A stretch of 47,106 nt of DNA, from contig JAJBUB010000061.1 of the NCBI GenBank assembly GCA_020860575.1, positions 1 to 47,106 on the forward strand. The letters run 5' to 3'. Origin of the DNA: Clostridiales bacterium (GTDB lineage Bacteria > Bacillota > Clostridia > Oscillospirales > Oscillospiraceae). Positions 1,161-42,505 of this stretch are shown piece by piece. The position numbers and the translations under genes are program-made. The notes below the pieces were generated by a model. The model did not search any database and was not told the DNA's origin. It saw only the letters and a program-made list of their open reading frames with translations. Numbering within the stretch: position 1 is the stretch's first letter; each line of letters begins with the position of its first letter.

Positions 1161-1913
1161 ATGGAAACCAACTACTTTAAGGACTACAGCCCCGCCCTGG
1201 ACCGGGAGATGGAGTGCAAGCTCTACGGCCACGCCGGACGCCCGGTGATCTTTATCCCTTGCCAGGACGGGCGATTCTACGACTTTGAAAACTACAAGAT
1301 GACCGACGCCTGGGCCCCCTGGATCGAATCCGGCCAGGTCATGGTGCTGTCCATCGACACGCTGGACAAGGAGACCTGGTCCAATAAGAGCGGCGACCCC
1401 TACTGGCGCGCCCGCCGCCATGAGCAGTGGATGCGCTATATCACCGACGAGATAGTGCCCTTCCTCCGGGGTCTTGCCAACGAGCGCAACGGCTGGGAGG
1501 GGTATCCCGGCGTCATCGTCTTTGGGTGCAGCCTGGGAGCCACCCACGCCGCCAACCTGTTCTACCGCCGTCCCGACCTGTTTGACGGTCTGCTGGCCCT
1601 CAGCGGCATCTACACCGCCGACTACGGCTTTGACGGCTATATGGACGACGTGGTGTATCAGAACTCCCCCGTCCACTATATGGCCAATCTGCCGGCGGAT
1701 CACCCCTATATCGAGCTGTACAACCAGAAGAAGTCGGTGATCTGCGTGGGCCTGGGCAACTGGGAGCTGCCCAACTCCACCCGGCAGCTCCACGGCATCC
1801 TCCAGAGCAAGGGCATCCATACCTGGGTAGACTACTGGGGCTATGACTGCTGCCACGACTGGCCCTGGTGGTACAAGCAGGTGGCCTACTTCGTGCCCTG
1901 CCTGCTCAGCTGA
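1161..1913 (+). CDS. Second alpha/beta-hydrolase esterase (PF00756-like)
   Basis: A 250-residue serine hydrolase of the same broad fold as the upstream gene but clearly different in sequence. The nucleophile elbow is G-C-S-L-G (Ser about 124) and a C-terminal CCHDW motif gives a likely catalytic His at about 232. It has an unusually high aromatic content (many Tyr and Trp). No signal peptide is visible. GGGAG lies about 9 bases before ATG. It sits 46 bp after the first esterase and 60 bp before the ATP-grasp gene, on the same strand and with no terminator, so all three are probably one operon. Substrate unknown. Confidence 0.83.
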   Translation: METNYFKDYSPALDREMECKLYGHAGRPVIFIPCQDGRFYDFENYKMTDAWAPWIESGQVMVLSIDTLDKETWSNKSGDPYWRARRHEQWMRYITDEIVPFLRGLANERNGWEGYPGVIVFGCSLGATHAANLFYRRPDLFDGLLALSGIYTADYGFDGYMDDVVYQNSPVHYMANLPADHPYIELYNQKKSVICVGLGNWELPNSTRQLHGILQSKGIHTWVDYWGYDCCHDWPWWYKQVAYFVPCLLS

Positions 1914-36776: not shown

Positions 36777-38915
36777 TTACCGGTTCTCCTTCCGGGCCTT
36801 GATCTCCCGGAGAGCGTCGATGTGGCTCAAGTTGATACGGCCCTTTTCATCGATGTCGGTGACCTTGACCCAGATCATGTCGCCGATGTTCACCGCGTCC
36901 TCCACCGTGGCGATGCGGTGGTTGGCCAGCTTGGAGATGTGCACCAGACCGTCCTTGCCGGGGGCCAGCTCCACAGAGGCGCCGAACTTCATAATGCGGA
37001 CGACCTTGCCGAAGTACAGGCTGCCCACCTCGGGGACAAAGACGATGGCGTCGATGGCCTTCTTGGCGGCGTCCACGCTGGCGGAGTTGTTGCCGGAGAT
37101 ATAGATGGTGCCGTCTTCCTCCACGTCCACCTTGGCGCCGGAGTCGGCCTGGATCTTCTGAATGACCTTGCCGCCGGAGCCGATGACATCGCGGATGTTC
37201 TCCACAGCGATCTTCATCTTAATGAGCTTGGGGGCGTTGGGGGACAGCTCCGGACAGGGCTCGGAGATGCAGGGGATCATGAACTCGTCCAGGATCTGCA
37301 TACGGGCCTCACGGGTCAGCTCCAGGGCGTTCTTCACGATCTCCAGCGTCAAGCCGTCATTTTTCAGGTCCATCTGGATGGCGGTGATGCCGGTCTTGGT
37401 GCCTGCCACCTTGAAGTCCATCTCGCCGTGGAAGTCCTCCACGCCCTGAATGTCGATGAAGGTGTTGAAGCCGCCGTCGTCGTCCTGAATCAGACCGCAG
37501 GAGATGCCGGCCACGGGAGCCTTGATGGGCACGCCGGCGTCCATCAGAGCCAGGGTGGAACCGCAGATGGAGCCCTGAGAGGTGGAGCCGTTGGAGCTGA
37601 GCACCTCGGAGACCACACGGATGGCGTAGGGGAACTCCTCCTCAGAGGGGATGACGGGCAGCAGCGCCCGCTCGGCCAGAGCGCCGTGGCCATACTCCCG
37701 GCGGTTGGTGCTCTTGCTGCCCTTGGCCTCGCCCACGGAGTAGCCGGGGAAGTTGTAGTGGTGCATATACCGCTTGGACTCCTCCTCCCAGATGGTGTCC
37801 AGCTTCTGGCAGGCGGAGAGGGTGTTCAGGGTGCAGACGGAGAGAACCTGGGTCTGACCGCGGGTGAACAGGCCGGAGCCGTGGACCCGGGGCAGGACGC
37901 CCACCTCGGCGGCCAGAGGCCGGATCTCATTCCGTGCGCGGCCGTCTACCCGGTGGCCCTCCAGCAGCCAGGCCTTGACGATCTTCTTCTGGAACTTGTA
38001 GGTGATCTCCTCCAGGTACTTGTCCATGTCGGGATAGTCCTCCAGGAACAGCTCGTGCCAGTGATCCACCAGCTTGTCCCAGCGGGCCTCCCGGACGTTC
38101 TTGTCGTCGGTGTCCATGGCGGCCTTGGCCTCGTCCATGGTGGCGTCCACGATCTTGTCGAACAGCTCCTGGTCGAAGTCGGCGTGGGGATAGTCGAACT
38201 TGGGCTTGCCGATCTCCTCCACCATCTGGTTGATGAGCTTGATCTGCTTCTGGATCTCGTCAAAGGCCTTGCAGATGCCCTCGAACATGATCTCGTCGGG
38301 GATCTGATCGGCGCCGGCCTCGATCATGACGATCTTCTTGCCGGTGGCGACTACGGTGGTGGCCATCTGGCTCTTGTGGCTCTGCTCCTGGGTGGGGTTA
38401 AAGACGATCTGGCCGTCGACATAGCCCACGCTCAGACAGCCCACAGGGCCGTTCCAGGGGATGTCGGAGATGGACAGGGCGGCGGAGGTGCCGATGGTGG
38501 CGGCTACCTCAGGGGAGCAGTCCCGGTCCACCGACAGGACGGTGCAGGTGATGGCCACATCGTTGCGGAAGTCGTGGGGGAACAGGGGACGGATGGGCCG
38601 GTCGATGCAGCGGCTGGCCAGGACGGCGGGCAGGCTGGGACGGCCCTCCCGGCGCATGAAGGAGCCGGGGATACGGCCCACGGCGTACAGCTTTTCCTCA
38701 AAGTCAACAGACAGGGGGAAGAAGTCCACCCCGTCCCGGGGCCGGGAGGCGGCGGTGGCGGTGACGAGAACGGTGGTCTCGCCATAGGTGACGACCACGG
38801 CGGCGTTGGCCAGCTCGGCCACCTTGCCCACCTCCAGCTTGAGGGGACGGCCGCACAGGTCCATCTCGTAGCACTTATAGTTGGGGAACTCGCGATGCTT
38901 AATGATGATCGACAT
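36777..38915 (-). CDS. pnp: Polyribonucleotide nucleotidyltransferase (PNPase)
   Basis: A 712-residue trimeric 3'-5' exoribonuclease that uses phosphate. Two RNase PH domains (about 1-215 and 310-540) surround a helical domain. The core has FETRRR-type R and GSSxSQGS motifs seen as SSNGSTSQGSICGSTLALMDAGVP. A KH domain lies near 560-620 (IRDVIGSGGKVIQKI) and an S1 domain near 630-700 (GKVVRIMKFGASVELAPGKDGLVHIS). AAGGAGG lies before ATG. It follows rpsO with a long hairpin between, as in many bacteria where pnp is autoregulated. Confidence 0.98.
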   Translation of the reverse strand: MSIIIKHREFPNYKCYEMDLCGRPLKLEVGKVAELANAAVVVTYGETTVLVTATAASRPRDGVDFFPLSVDFEEKLYAVGRIPGSFMRREGRPSLPAVLASRCIDRPIRPLFPHDFRNDVAITCTVLSVDRDCSPEVAATIGTSAALSISDIPWNGPVGCLSVGYVDGQIVFNPTQEQSHKSQMATTVVATGKKIVMIEAGADQIPDEIMFEGICKAFDEIQKQIKLINQMVEEIGKPKFDYPHADFDQELFDKIVDATMDEAKAAMDTDDKNVREARWDKLVDHWHELFLEDYPDMDKYLEEITYKFQKKIVKAWLLEGHRVDGRARNEIRPLAAEVGVLPRVHGSGLFTRGQTQVLSVCTLNTLSACQKLDTIWEEESKRYMHHYNFPGYSVGEAKGSKSTNRREYGHGALAERALLPVIPSEEEFPYAIRVVSEVLSSNGSTSQGSICGSTLALMDAGVPIKAPVAGISCGLIQDDDGGFNTFIDIQGVEDFHGEMDFKVAGTKTGITAIQMDLKNDGLTLEIVKNALELTREARMQILDEFMIPCISEPCPELSPNAPKLIKMKIAVENIRDVIGSGGKVIQKIQADSGAKVDVEEDGTIYISGNNSASVDAAKKAIDAIVFVPEVGSLYFGKVVRIMKFGASVELAPGKDGLVHISKLANHRIATVEDAVNIGDMIWVKVTDIDEKGRINLSHIDALREIKARKENR

Positions 38916-38952
38916 AATTGTGTTTTCCTCCTTGGAATATTTTTCAACGGGA

Positions 38953-39044
38953 GGAACAGAGGGCTCTTTTTAGCACTTGAATCCGGCCTCCCGCAGACGC
39001 CGAAGGACAGATTCAACTGCTAAAAGAGGCGTTCCCTCTGTTCC
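38953..39044 (-). promoter_or_regulatory. Long hairpin in the pnp leader
   Basis: Three paired segments form one 92-nt imperfect hairpin: GGAACAGAGGG with CCCTCTGTTCC (38953-38963 with 39034-39044), CTCTTTTTAGCA with TGCTAAAAGAG (38964-38975 with 39018-39028) and TTGAATC with GATTCAA (38977-38983 with 39010-39016), with a 5-nt bulge. This resembles the RNase III target of the enterobacterial pnp leader, whose cutting lets PNPase degrade its own mRNA. Confidence 0.65.
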
Positions 39045-39069
39045 AGGACGAGCTGGGAAACGCACAGCA

Positions 39070-39095
39070 GGGGTGACGCCCTATGACGCCACCCC
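39070..39095 (-). other. Hairpin just after rpsO
   Basis: GGGGTG/CACCCC with inner G-U-rich pairs, 4-nt loop, starting 10 nt after the rpsO stop (39105) on the minus strand. No T tract follows, so it is more likely an RNA-stability or attenuating hairpin between rpsO and pnp than a full terminator. Confidence 0.45.
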
Positions 39096-39104
39096 TGGAG
39101 TGTA

Positions 39105-39371
39105 TTACTTACGAATGTCCAGCTTGGCGATGATCGCACGATAGCGCTCGATATCCTTCTTTGCCAGATAGTCCAGCAGACGGCGGCGCTTACCGACCAT
39201 TTTCAGCAGACCACGGCGGGAGTGGTTGTCGTGGGGATGCACCTTCAGGTGCTCGGTGAGCTGCTGAATACGGGTGGTGAGAATGGCGATCTGGACCTCG
39301 GGAGAGCCGGTGTCGTTCTCATGGGTGCGGTTTGCCTCGATGACGGCAGTTTTTTCCTCTTTGCGGATCAT
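39105..39371 (-). CDS. rpsO: 30S ribosomal protein S15
   Basis: An 88-residue ribosomal protein of normal length that binds 16S rRNA early in assembly. Helix signatures [20 protein letters not shown] and [20 protein letters not shown] are clear. ATG 39371 has AAGGTGG 8 bases upstream; an in-frame ATG at 39383 has none. It heads the rpsO-pnp operon behind a promoter at 39490-39518 and a leader of about 113 nt. Confidence 0.98.
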
Positions 39372-39489
39372 AATGGGTTCCACCTTTTCTTTAAATTCCC
39401 GCTGAGCTGAGTGTCAGGCCGGTGAATTGGGGATGTCTCTCTCCTGTCTCCTGAAACCAGGCCCACGGGTCTGCGTTACACGCTTAGTA

Positions 39490-39518
39490 ACTGTATCATA
39501 TTTTCAGGGCGGTGTAAA
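39490..39518 (-). promoter_or_regulatory. Promoter of the rpsO-pnp operon
   Basis: Minus strand: TTTACA (39513-39518), 17-bp spacer, TACAGT (39490-39495) with TGA before the -10 (extended). The leader from here to the ATG is about 113 nt, long enough to hold an S15 autoregulatory site, which is a known mode in several bacteria. I cannot name its fold. Confidence 0.6.
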
Positions 39519-39672
39519 GAGCTTTTTTGGGAATTTTCCCGCGCCCTTTCTTCCCTCCCAGGGCATATCCGGCAGGGTTCCGTCACCGTTTCCGGGAACG
39601 TTATCCTGCCCCGTCCGCCGCAGGCGAACGTTTTTCCGTCTTCTGCGTTCTTTCCGGAAAATTTTGTGCAAG

Positions 39673-39714
39673 TTGTCAAAGCGTCTGTAAACGTCCTGTG
39701 AAGATTTTGTCAGG
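39673..39714 (+). promoter_or_regulatory. Four Pho-box-like repeats
   Basis: Heptamers TTGTCAA, CTGTAAA, CTGTGAA and TTGTCAG occur with their TGT cores at 39674, 39686, 39697 and 39708, so spaced 12, 11 and 11 bp. A further weaker TGT lies at 39716. Reversed, they read TTGACA/TTTACA/TTCACA with 5-bp gaps, like the PhoP repeats of Bacillus subtilis. A PhoBR-like system is encoded right beside them. Confidence 0.45.
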
Positions 39715-39742
39715 CTGTTCACGGCTTTTTCGTGCTTTTCTC

Positions 39743-39771
39743 TTGAAAAATCCTGAAAAAAGGCTTAAACT
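39743..39771 (+). promoter_or_regulatory. Plus-strand promoter of the candidate small RNA
   Basis: TTGAAA (39743-39748), exact 17-bp spacer, TAAACT (39766-39771). Expected start near 39778. No protein gene on the plus strand follows before the terminator at 39849-39884. Confidence 0.6.
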
Positions 39772-39777
39772 ACAAAA

Positions 39778-39884
39778 CAGCAAGAGTTTCTTGCACGGGT
39801 CCCGCAGGAGTGGGGCCGGAATGTGTGAGAGGTTTGCTGCTTTACAAGACGTCTGAGTGCACGGCTCAGGCGTTTTGTTTTTTT
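39778..39884 (+). ncRNA. Candidate small RNA, about 107 nt
   Basis: A promoter (39743-39771) and a strong terminator (39849-39884) bound a plus-strand stretch of about 107 nt between two minus-strand genes. Inside, CAGCAA near the 5' end can pair with TTGCTG near 39831-39840, closing an inner stem GGTCCC/GGGGCC. A short reading frame of 11 codons (39821-39856, MCERFAALQDV) follows a GCAGGAG site. The RNA does not resemble tmRNA, 6S, RNase P or SRP RNA that I would recognise. It could be a regulatory RNA, a dual-function RNA or a tiny peptide message. The 39372-39893 gap also contains the rpsO leader and promoter and the Pho-like repeats. Confidence 0.5.
39849..39884 (+). terminator. Strong plus-strand terminator
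   Basis: Stem ACGTCTGAG / CTCAGGCGT (9 bp with one G-U) around a 7-nt loop, followed by TTTTGTTTTTTT. It can act only on plus-strand transcripts, because the minus side lacks T's. It ends 10 bp before the phoR stop, so it is not the terminator of phoR. Confidence 0.85.
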
Positions 39885-39893
39885 GCGCCCCGG

Positions 39894-41264
39894 TCAGTCC
39901 CCGTCCTCCGTCTCGTCTGCGGGGAAGAGCAGGCGGATCTCCGTCCCCTGCCCCGGCTGGCTCTCCAGCTGGAGCTGGGCGTTGTGGGCGGCGGCGGCGT
40001 GCTTGACGATGGACAGGCACAAACCGGTGCCTCCCACCGCCTTGGAGCGGCTCTTGTCCACCCGGTAGAACCGCTCGAACACCCGGCTCTGGTCCTCCTC
40101 CGGGATGCCAATGCCTGTGTCCGCCACCGACAGTAGCACCCGGTCTCCCAAGCGGTTCACCGTAACCACCACGCTGCCCCCGTCCCGGTTGTACTTGATG
40201 GCGTTGTCGCACAGATTGCTGATCACCTCGCCCAGCAGCTCCCTGGACCCCTGGACGATCCCGTGGGTCCCCTTCAGCTCCAGGGCGATCTCCCGGCGCT
40301 CCGCCTGGGGCCGGAAGCGGCGGAGTACCTCCTCACAGAGCGGGTACAGGTCCACCGCCGTCTTTTCCATTCCCACACCCAGGTCTTCTACCCTGGACAG
40401 CTCCAGGATATCTCCCACCAGGGTCTGGAGCCTCTGGGCCTCGTCGTAGATCTTGCCGGAGAATTCCTTCACATTTTCCGGCCGGGCGATGCCCTCATGG
40501 ATGATCTCCGCATAGCCGGAGATGGAGGTCAGGGGGGTTTTCAGCTCGTGGGAGACGTTGGCGGTAAACTCCCGGCGGAGCCGGTCCTGCCGCTGGTGCT
40601 CCTGGTCCAGCAGCTCCATCTGCCGCTTGATCTGGCGGCTCTGGGCGTTGATGCGCCGGGCCAGAGGGCGCAACTCCGGATAGACCCCGTTCTCGTCAGG
40701 ATGCTCCAGGTCGATCTCGTTCACCGGCCGGGCAATGGTCTCCGCAATACGCCAGGCCAGCAGGCCGGAGAGCAACACCGCCAGGGCCACCACCAGTAGC
40801 AGCGAGGGCCACACATCCAGCAGCATACTCAGTATCGTCCATTCCGTCCCGGAGACACGCAGCACGGTGCCGTCCGACAGGAGCAGGGCATAATAGGTGG
40901 TTTTGGTGGCCAGAGTGTCGGAGTAACGGACACTCCAGCCGCTGCCGCTCTCCCAGGCCTGAGCCACCTCCTCCCGCTGGCTGTGGTTCTCCATGGAGGC
41001 GGCGTCCGCCTCGCTGTCATAGAGCACCGTGCCGTCGGTATCGATCCAGGTGACGCGCTGCTGGGTAGCCTCCCGGTCCACCGTCTCCAGGAAGTCTCCC
41101 CCGCCGGTCTCCACGGCGGCCCCCAGATAGGCGGCCTCCTCCTCCAGGCGCTGCCGGTTGTGCTGGGAGAAATAGTCGAACACCGCCAGCACCGTCACCG
41201 ACAGGCAGGCGAGCAGCACCACCATGGCGCAGAGGAAGCTATTCCAAAACAGCTTACGCTTCAT
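39894..41264 (-). CDS. phoR: PhoR-like sensor histidine kinase
   Basis: A 456-residue membrane kinase. Membrane helices lie at about 8-30 and 152-175, with an extracellular sensor domain between. A cytoplasmic linker leads to the HisKA box FTANVSHELKTPLTSISGYAE (His about 235). The HATPase region has the N box ISNLCDNAIKYN and G1 box DTGIGIPEEDQSRVFERFYRVD. The G2 box reads GGTGLCLSIVKH, with Cys where Gly is usual. It overlaps the response regulator by 11 bp. PhoR identity rests on similarity and its pairing with an OmpR-type regulator; the signal (phosphate or other stress) is unproven. Confidence 0.88.
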   Translation of the reverse strand: MKRKLFWNSFLCAMVVLLACLSVTVLAVFDYFSQHNRQRLEEEAAYLGAAVETGGGDFLETVDREATQQRVTWIDTDGTVLYDSEADAASMENHSQREEVAQAWESGSGWSVRYSDTLATKTTYYALLLSDGTVLRVSGTEWTILSMLLDVWPSLLLVVALAVLLSGLLAWRIAETIARPVNEIDLEHPDENGVYPELRPLARRINAQSRQIKRQMELLDQEHQRQDRLRREFTANVSHELKTPLTSISGYAEIIHEGIARPENVKEFSGKIYDEAQRLQTLVGDILELSRVEDLGVGMEKTAVDLYPLCEEVLRRFRPQAERREIALELKGTHGIVQGSRELLGEVISNLCDNAIKYNRDGGSVVVTVNRLGDRVLLSVADTGIGIPEEDQSRVFERFYRVDKSRSKAVGGTGLCLSIVKHAAAAHNAQLQLESQPGQGTEIRLLFPADETEDGD

Positions 41265-41937
41265 CGTCTGTCCTCCTGATCCGGTAGCCGACCCCCCGGA
41301 CCGTCTCGATCAGGTCTCCGGCCTGTCCCAGCTTCTGCCGCAGGGTGCGTACATGGACGTCCACCGTCCGGCTCTCCCCCTGGTAGGTGTAGCCCCAGAC
41401 CTCCCGGATGAGCTGCTCCCGGGTGACCACCCGGTCCTCGTTTTTCAGCAGCAGGCACAGCAGGTCGAACTCCTTTCGGGTCAAAACCACCTCTGTCTCC
41501 GCCGCCTGGACCCGGCGCTTCTCCGGCCAGACGGTGAGGCCGTCCAGCCGGTACACCGTCTCCTGTTTTTCCCGGGCCGTCCGGCGGAGCAGCGCCCGGA
41601 CGCGGGCGGTCAGCTCCATCATGCCGAAGGGCTTGGCCAGATAGTCGTCCGCCCCCAGGTCCAGGCCCACCACCTTGTCATACTCGCTGTCCTTGGCGGT
41701 GAGCATCATCACCGGCGTCTCCGCCGTCCCCGGCGTCCGGCGCAGACGGGCCAGGATGTCCAGCCCACTCTCCTCCGGGAGCATGATGTCCAGCAGCACC
41801 AGATCAGGCGTCTGCCGCTCCACCTCCGCCCAAAACTGGGAGGGCAGGCCGAAGCCCTTCGCCTCCAGACCGGTCTGGTTCAGGGTATAGACCACCAGCT
41901 CCCGGATGTTTCCGTCGTCCTCCACCAGATAGATCAT
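41254..41937 (-). CDS. phoB: PhoB/PhoP-like response regulator
   Basis: A 227-residue OmpR-family regulator. The receiver domain has the acidic pocket ED at 6-7, phospho-acceptor Asp50 in LVLLDIMLP, and Lys in DYLAKPFGM (near 103). The winged-helix domain (about 128-225) contains LTRKEFDLLCLLL and RTVDVHVRTLRQKLG. There is no clear ribosome binding site, so it may be coupled to the SecB-like gene 6 bp upstream. The kinase that phosphorylates it is encoded next, overlapping by 11 bp. Confidence 0.92.
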   Translation of the reverse strand: MIYLVEDDGNIRELVVYTLNQTGLEAKGFGLPSQFWAEVERQTPDLVLLDIMLPEESGLDILARLRRTPGTAETPVMMLTAKDSEYDKVVGLDLGADDYLAKPFGMMELTARVRALLRRTAREKQETVYRLDGLTVWPEKRRVQAAETEVVLTRKEFDLLCLLLKNEDRVVTREQLIREVWGYTYQGESRTVDVHVRTLRQKLGQAGDLIETVRGVGYRIRRTDDEA

Positions 41938-41943
41938 GGCAGA

Positions 41944-42375
41944 TCACACGATGGGCAGGCTGGGGGGATTGTTCTCCTTCCGGGACTGAGAGACGACCAC
42001 TCTTCCCTCGTCCAGGGGGACCTTTTTCAGCATAAAGCCGGCGAACCCGGTGGAGCCAAAGAGCTGCCCCACCACCGACTGGAGATAGGGGAACAGGGCG
42101 TCATAGGCCTGGAGATGGACAGCTTTCTTGTCCTCATCGCTCATCACTCCCTGGCAGGAGAACAGCCCCTCCAGGGTGACGGAGACGGAGATGGCCTCCT
42201 CCCCGCTCTTGTCCTCAAAGCTCTGATAGAGGGTGGCCACGCAGTTCTGATTGTTGGCGGCAAATTTGACGTTAAAGTTGAAGTTGCTCCTGAGCTGGAG
42301 CTGTCCCTGCTTTTTGATGTCGTTGCGGAGATGCAGCTCCCGGGTGCGCTGCTGGAGCAGAGTAACGGTTGCCAT
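41944..42375 (-). CDS. SecB-like protein
   Basis: A 143-residue protein resembling SecB, the export chaperone that holds proteins unfolded for SecA. It has the core beta part (LRSNFNFNVKFAANNQNCVATLYQ), LEGLFSCQG, and the C-terminal segment with AYDALFPYLQSVVGQLFGSTGFAGFMLKKV, which matches the ILFPY and later-strand pattern of SecB. SecB proper is mainly a proteobacterial protein, and Firmicute SecB-like proteins are of uncertain role. AGGAGG lies before ATG 42375; a longer frame to 42474 crosses the promoter. It is first of an operon with phoB and phoR. Confidence 0.65.
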   Translation of the reverse strand: MATVTLLQQRTRELHLRNDIKKQGQLQLRSNFNFNVKFAANNQNCVATLYQSFEDKSGEEAISVSVTLEGLFSCQGVMSDEDKKAVHLQAYDALFPYLQSVVGQLFGSTGFAGFMLKKVPLDEGRVVVSQSRKENNPPSLPIV

Positions 42376-42433
42376 GGCGGTTTCCTCCTTATATGAAGTG
42401 CAAAATGGCTGAGGTTTTGTCGGGTATAGGTCA

Positions 42434-42462
42434 ATTATACCACGCATTTGAGGAAAGAACAA
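42434..42462 (-). promoter_or_regulatory. Promoter of the secB-like/phoB/phoR operon
   Basis: Minus strand: TTGTTC (42457-42462), 17-bp spacer, TATAAT (42434-42439) preceded by TGG (extended -10). The ATG is 59 bp further on. Confidence 0.7.
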
Positions 42463-42505
42463 TGCGCGAGCCACAGCTTTTGTCTCCGGCTGTCTCTCAA
42501 AGCAC

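Follow-up and report, generated by a model that had tools for sequence, protein, structure and literature searches.

A structured small RNA gene conserved in a genus of Oscillospiraceae and likely to represent a new family

6S RNA (RF00013) is a free-standing, rod-like RNA that has its own promoter and binds protein. The trans-acting sRNAs RsaE and SR1 of Firmicutes are short and intergenic, with a sigma-A promoter and an intrinsic terminator, and most known Firmicutes sRNAs of such size pair with mRNAs. Type I antitoxin RNAs are paired with a small membrane protein. In uncultured gut Oscillospiraceae, small RNAs have to our knowledge been charted only poorly.

Here, we examined a putative plus-strand small RNA gene in a 47,106-nucleotide stretch of DNA from a Clostridiales bacterium (contig JAJBUB010000061.1), the whole of which is referred to as the window. 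Like 6S RNA, the product would be a free-standing, rod-like RNA with its own promoter, but it is shorter, has no Rfam match, and coexists with a separate 6S gene, present in 30 of the 32 genomes of the genus (own copy at G000:C38:8940-9134). Given that separate gene, and with no RF00013 match at the locus, 6S RNA was rejected. The locus shares with RsaE and SR1 a short intergenic RNA, a sigma-A-type promoter, and an intrinsic terminator; it differs from them in that no unpaired seed is conserved across the genus. It also resembles CsrB/RsmY-type decoys in being structured and in carrying GGA, which in the window occurs in the apical loop (AGGA) and in a bulge (GGAA). A decoy of this type was rejected because CsrA was found in 0 of 32 genus genomes (in the control, 3 of 14 genomes were positive) and the GGA of the loop is not kept in relatives.

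Searches of Rfam 15 gave no match on the RNA. The first-pass annotation, made from the sequence alone, had recognized no named RNA. The whole window at gathering score returned two tRNAs only. At E up to 5, positions 38500-41500 gave a single chance microRNA match elsewhere, and the loci of nine relatives gave six matches, none above gathering score and none on the RNA. A mobile origin was rejected as well, with no plasmid or phage match (distant blastn, E 0.01). The terms rpsO and Oscillospir- were absent from the main text of PMC8040213 and PMC11109978 (word search). The motif may stand unnamed in some published supplement list, and we do not claim that it is unpublished.

Signals and fold at the locus

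The features of the locus are as follows.

39686..39713, minus strand: direct repeats with an 11-bp period, TGTAAA-N5-TGTGAA-N5-TGTCAG as read on the plus strand, resembling a WalR/PhoP-type box; regulator putative
39726..39730, plus strand: T-run 5' of the -35 box, resembling an UP element by eye; function putative
39743..39748, plus strand: -35 hexamer TTGAAA, from the promoter scan and comparison of loci
39766..39771, plus strand: -10 hexamer TAAACT, from the promoter scan and comparison of loci
39778..39884, plus strand: predicted sRNA gene of about 107 nt, its probable start lying 6-7 nt past the -10 box
39778..39839, plus strand: hairpin 1, with basal stem P1 (18 bp), 3' bulge, and apical core, from the fold
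39798..39817, plus strand: apical core GGUCCCGCAGGAGUGGGGCC; family consensus GGnYYYGCARnnGYRnnnCC
39818..39821, plus strand: purine bulge (GGAA) at the 3' flank of the core, from the fold and alignment
39844..39884, plus strand: intrinsic terminator with a 15-bp stem, 5-nt loop, and T tail, from the scan, fold, and alignments

The promoter had been described as near-textbook. A promoter-like site is indeed present on the plus strand, with TTGAAA at 39743 and, after a 17-nt spacer, TAAACT ending at 39771, but it is only a 9-of-12 match. The terminator (39844-39878, followed by TTTTTT) is stronger than claimed: its stem of 15 pairs, closed by a 5-nt loop, is longer than the 9 bp first reported. 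Across the 3 kb around the locus, the scan returned three promoter-like sites (shuffles: 0.6, sd 0.9), the remaining two both on the minus strand, and five terminator-like sites (shuffles: 2.6, sd 2.0). Because these scans exceed the shuffles only slightly, the promoter and terminator by themselves are weak evidence and little proof of a gene.

The fold was the first strong sign of a real RNA gene. The 109 nt from 39778 folded at -54.5 kcal/mol (z -6.23; none of 200 shuffles reached so low an energy) into a long hairpin followed by the terminator hairpin. For the opposite strand (39772-39891), the value was -31.9 kcal/mol (z -0.86; 39 of 200 shuffles as low). A poor antisense fold is expected, because the G-U pairs of one strand are A-C mismatches on the other.

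Both flanking genes, rpsO (39105-39383) and the kinase gene (39894-41264), lie on the minus strand, as first reported, and in the window the 3' end of the phoR-like kinase gene is convergent with the RNA at a distance of 9 nt. The annotation had also stated that no plus-strand protein gene would use the terminator, and none is evident there. Overlapping plus-strand frames do appear at the locus in a frame listing that carries no coding-potential score, and an ATG frame of at least 10 aa was found in only 8 of 29 related hairpins (GTG and TTG starts uncounted). With no ATG frame conserved, a coding or dual-function RNA is unlikely.

Conservation of the RNA in the genus and beyond

By BLAST at the DNA level, 13 of 59 genomes, the own genome among them, have a match to the region, and all 13 belong to the 32 of the genus. 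The covariance model R1, built from these 13 first-found loci, gave matches with E values of 1.5e-7 or lower in 28 of the 32 genus genomes. The other four had no acceptable match (E 0.009 to 0.27), and two of them are at least 95% complete; the weak matches L068 and L069 were inspected, lack the core, and look like the ends of coding sequences, whereas those of G014 and G015 were judged by E value. Among four close relatives (L002, L003, L004, and L006), identity is 92.6-98.1% over the sRNA and 92.6-100% over the promoter and sRNA, with 78-86% in the nearby spacer and 89-93% in the phoR coding sequence. The rpsO leader, at 91.7-96.2%, is about as conserved as the sRNA. Across the 13 first-found loci, the terminator hardly varies in either stem or loop, and a pattern scan for the terminator motif in named genomes returned 10 records, one of them from Candidatus Onthomonas avicola (Oscillospiraceae).

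A promoter was picked in all 30 loci, 22 of them with a 17-nt spacer, by a script that took the best site per locus, slightly favored 17, and was run on unshuffled loci only; the pick at L051, counted here, looks wrong by eye. T-runs 5' of the -35 box in relatives resemble UP elements (by eye), and a separate terminator hairpin is present in all family members but one. As predicted from these loci, the unit would have its own promoter and intrinsic terminator, as is characteristic of a small RNA gene.

The core regex GGnYYYGCARnnGYRnnnCC was matched by 29 of the 30 hairpins tried, the exception being L126; in these 29, the basal stem counts 12-20 pairs and the core 6 or 8. At its middle, the core is paired in the window's clade; in the rest of the genus, a tandem pyrimidine-pyrimidine mismatch is usual there. 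The bulge 3' of the core is rich in purines in most relatives, with a second G that hardly varies. Eight columns of hairpin 1 are invariant in a 26-row alignment, all in the core and seven of them paired; the unpaired one is an A of the apical loop, while the rest of that loop and the linker vary. Scored alone, hairpin 1 gave modest z values (median -2.7 sense and -1.1 antisense over 29 loci), with 12 of 29 sense and 3 of 29 antisense values below -3. L067 scored 0.2, and at L048 and L125 the antisense strand scored better than the sense strand.

Pairing was counted in a model-fitted alignment of 26 distinct rows from the 28 loci, in which 92.7% of cells were paired, against 83.5% in shuffles and 37-45% when the partner was slid as a control, and 15 of 26 pairs had double changes, against 9.9 in shuffles. 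As an alignment of this kind leans toward its own structure, the count was repeated on a plain MAFFT alignment (26 of 28 loci, core and terminator only). Here, 98.9% of cells were paired (shuffles 95.3%), and 7 of 18 pairs were doubly changed (shuffles 3.7); shuffles were as high in 0 of 500 cases on percentage paired, 1 of 500 on doubly changed pairs, and 17 of 500 on pair types. Because the basal stem is beyond what MAFFT can align, the P1 arms of nine lineages sharing little sequence were compared. The arms averaged -17.7 kcal/mol (-13.8 to -23.2) with their own partners and -8.3 (sd 3.1) with swapped partners, in a test that favors own partners by construction because the arms were picked from predicted stems; the swapped partner was the stronger in two of nine rows (L047 and L056). 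These comparisons point to a conserved secondary structure with compensatory changes, a further mark of a small RNA gene. The conservation check proposed with the first-pass annotation was run, and its small-RNA interpretation is supported and right in substance: promoter, stems, and terminator are kept, with compensatory changes, in 28 of 32 genus genomes.

Outside the genus, we found two convincing members, in one genome of each of two genera (G084 and G168). The G084 member (L072/L126) was accepted by eye and misses the core regex. In G168 (L125, about 1759-1844, minus strand), the RNA consists of one hairpin, the basal stem of which leads directly into T-runs, and hairpin 1 seems to act as its own terminator, doing both jobs; the one other genome of that genus had no acceptable match, judged from scores. 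A wide distribution across the family was rejected. The model R2 matched 133 of 300 genomes family-wide at E 0.01, yet among 24 of its matches outside the genus (L071-L094) the core regex was found in none, by eye only L072 has the core, and the remainder look like unrelated terminators. A scan with the core pattern located 41 places, spread over 38 of 400 genomes, fewer than its reversed control (about 69, hand count), with a pattern that misses the window's own clade; 26 of the 32 places outside the genus were inspected, and one, L125, was convincing.

Since 28 of 32 genus genomes and one genome in each of two other genera carry the same gene, we regard its status as settled and are highly confident that a real small RNA gene lies at 39778-39884 on the plus strand. 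That there is no gene, only a relic hairpin flanked by chance resemblances to a promoter and a terminator, would fit the slight excess over shuffles in the simple scans, but conservation and covariation speak against this, and we consider it very improbable. The comparisons support a conserved, structured, non-coding, free-standing transcription unit, presumably transcribed, that gave no Rfam match and is best read as a new sRNA family of a known kind.

Neighboring genes and upstream repeats

The placement between rpsO and a PhoR-like kinase, as first described, is true in the window and local to it: rpsO stands beside the RNA in at least 14 of 28 genus loci and the kinase gene in at least 8 of 28, counts that are lower bounds because the flanks covered about 1.5 kb a side and some were cut by contig ends. 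As the neighbors change, the RNA is taken to be a free-standing gene. The facing genes vary too, and include phoR, a small membrane-protein-like gene, a TetR-like gene (by eye), and others. Opposite the RNA, the small membrane-protein-like gene is found at 16 of 26 genus loci (a survey that left out L040 and L041) and at both other-genera loci; it was assigned by eye, at L049 and L051 by C-terminal ends only, with tblastn support for others. Its uncharacterized product has about 80-110 aa, an NVIDFxxY-like motif near the N terminus, and a C-terminal hydrophobic stretch. It was seen at L125:1415-1720 and L053-L063, and several other genomes have it close to rpsO. Pfam returned no match to the two forms tried, nor did NCBIfam to the one form tried.

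A profile of this small protein matched 55 of 400 family genomes, and the window's own genome had no match among the 13 of 45 candidates scored. For the 46 matching genomes outside the genus (besides G084 and G168), we inspected 23 loci, of which 6 had rpsO and 2 ended before any downstream sequence. In all 21 loci with downstream sequence, the core regex, which does not pick up a divergent core of the G084 kind, was absent near the gene. By this survey, the membrane protein and rpsO adjoin in genomes in which no RNA was found, and the RNA occurs without either. We rejected rpsO, phoR, or the small membrane protein as an obligate partner, as the neighbors vary. The convergent small membrane-protein-like gene does liken the RNA to a type I antitoxin; that identity does not fit, since there is no constant toxin partner, the facing gene differs, none was found in the own genome among the candidates scored, and in other genera the gene is present with no core regex in its vicinity. 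The RNA could instead be a cis element, an antisense RNA or convergent terminator tuning the 3' end of the facing gene. It does face the 3' end of a minus-strand gene, only 9 nt from phoR in the window, and the recurrence of the small membrane-protein-like gene opposite it fits such a role. Against this, the facing gene differs among relatives, the antisense strand folds poorly in the window, a shared terminator would need neither a promoter nor a 60-nt hairpin, and the absence of the core regex from 21 of 21 loci suggests that the membrane-protein gene does not need the RNA; we think a cis role improbable.

On the minus strand, the upstream repeats read TTCACA-N5-TTTACA. Their first pair has one mismatch to the WalR consensus TGTWAH-N5-TGTWAH, as given in PMC9210968, and the repeats of L047, L050, and L052 match that consensus exactly (by eye). 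TGTNA[AGT] pairs 11 bp apart were found upstream in 10 of 30 loci, in a scan of unshuffled sequence, and we group them as five lineages, namely the six loci of the window's clade and, one each, L046, L047, L050, and L052. The own genome has six exact TTNACA-N5-TTNACA sites, one at 39686-39702 of the window, and the reversed control one; none is at the pst operon, and the own pstS promoter has no perfect box. One such site (L039) lies some 460 bases before an mreB-like gene (by eye). In NCBIfam, the top model for the neighboring regulator is PhoB (220 bits, cut-off 296); for the neighboring kinase it is PnpS (260 bits, cut-off 400), then PhoR. Three other regulators of the genome outscore the neighbor as PhoB, and the true phosphate regulator is not obvious because no PhoB match passes the cut-off; the own genome (G000) has 15 places that align to almost the full PhoB model at 151-236 bits, and all fall short of that cut-off. 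A SecB-like protein (Pfam SecB 29.4 bits, cut-off 26) is encoded at 41944-42474 of the window, minus strand, directly upstream of the PhoB-like gene.

An sRNA of the Pho or Wal regulon, under the adjacent PhoB/PhoR-like pair, is a possible but less likely reading of these data. The best-scoring assignments of regulator and kinase favor it, as do the 11-bp repeats. The review PMC4415409 groups PhoR-PhoB, PhoR-PhoP, and PnpR-PnpS together as a single type of system that uses 11-nt direct repeats. The pstS promoter without a perfect box, the kinase gene beside only 8 of 28 loci, and repeats in 10 of 30 count against it. Because both neighbors score below their cut-offs and three regulators score higher as PhoB, we do not call this a Pho sRNA.

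Possible mode of action

Our best explanation of the whole, held with moderate confidence, is a free-standing, non-coding, trans-acting sRNA of ~107 nt that presents a hairpin to a protein. Its plus-strand transcription would start at a sigma-A-type promoter of its own and stop at an intrinsic terminator that likewise belongs to it, and in the rpsO-linked lineages a response regulator of the WalR/PhoP type may tune it via the upstream 11-bp repeats. The sRNA would act in trans, mainly by offering a protein this hairpin, a long rod with a purine-rich 3' bulge and a GCA-containing apical core. Whether the mode is protein binding could, in our judgment, go either way. We prefer it over mRNA pairing because nearly all invariant positions of hairpin 1 are paired and because no unpaired stretch of seed length is conserved across the genus; selection would appear to keep a shaped core and not a pairing seed.

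Pairing with mRNAs in trans, through a sub-clade seed in the terminator loop (UGCACGG) or the apical loop (AGGA), is possible but doubtful. It would be the usual mode for a Firmicutes sRNA of this size, and a seed would also explain the near-invariance of the terminator in the 13 first-found loci and the constancy of the terminator and apical loops in the window's clade. The terminator loops, however, differ by sub-clade (UGCACGG, UGAUGCA, CCGCCG, and others), and two 3' positions of the apical loop vary. A crude duplex test against six leaders (rpsO, pnp, secB-like/phoB, phoB, phoR, and pstS) gave no signal for those leaders (z -1.4 to +1.3). An unpaired seed is absent across the genus, yet the loops are constant within the window's clade.

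Protein binding also admits a bolder reading, which we consider unlikely, in which the RNA founds a family of protein-binding sRNAs in CsrA-less Oscillospiraceae, global in reach and switched by a WalR/PhoP-type regulator. The arms might then be free to change, with the core and purine bulge held for a candidate RNA-binding protein, and the core, often with tandem pyrimidine-pyrimidine mismatches, might serve in a style comparable to 6S or CsrB. The family is defined well enough, with 28 genus members, covariance models, and a consensus core, to be searched for in existing metatranscriptomes. If protein binding is true, the core would be a ready bait for an RNA-binding protein in bacteria in which no CsrA was found.
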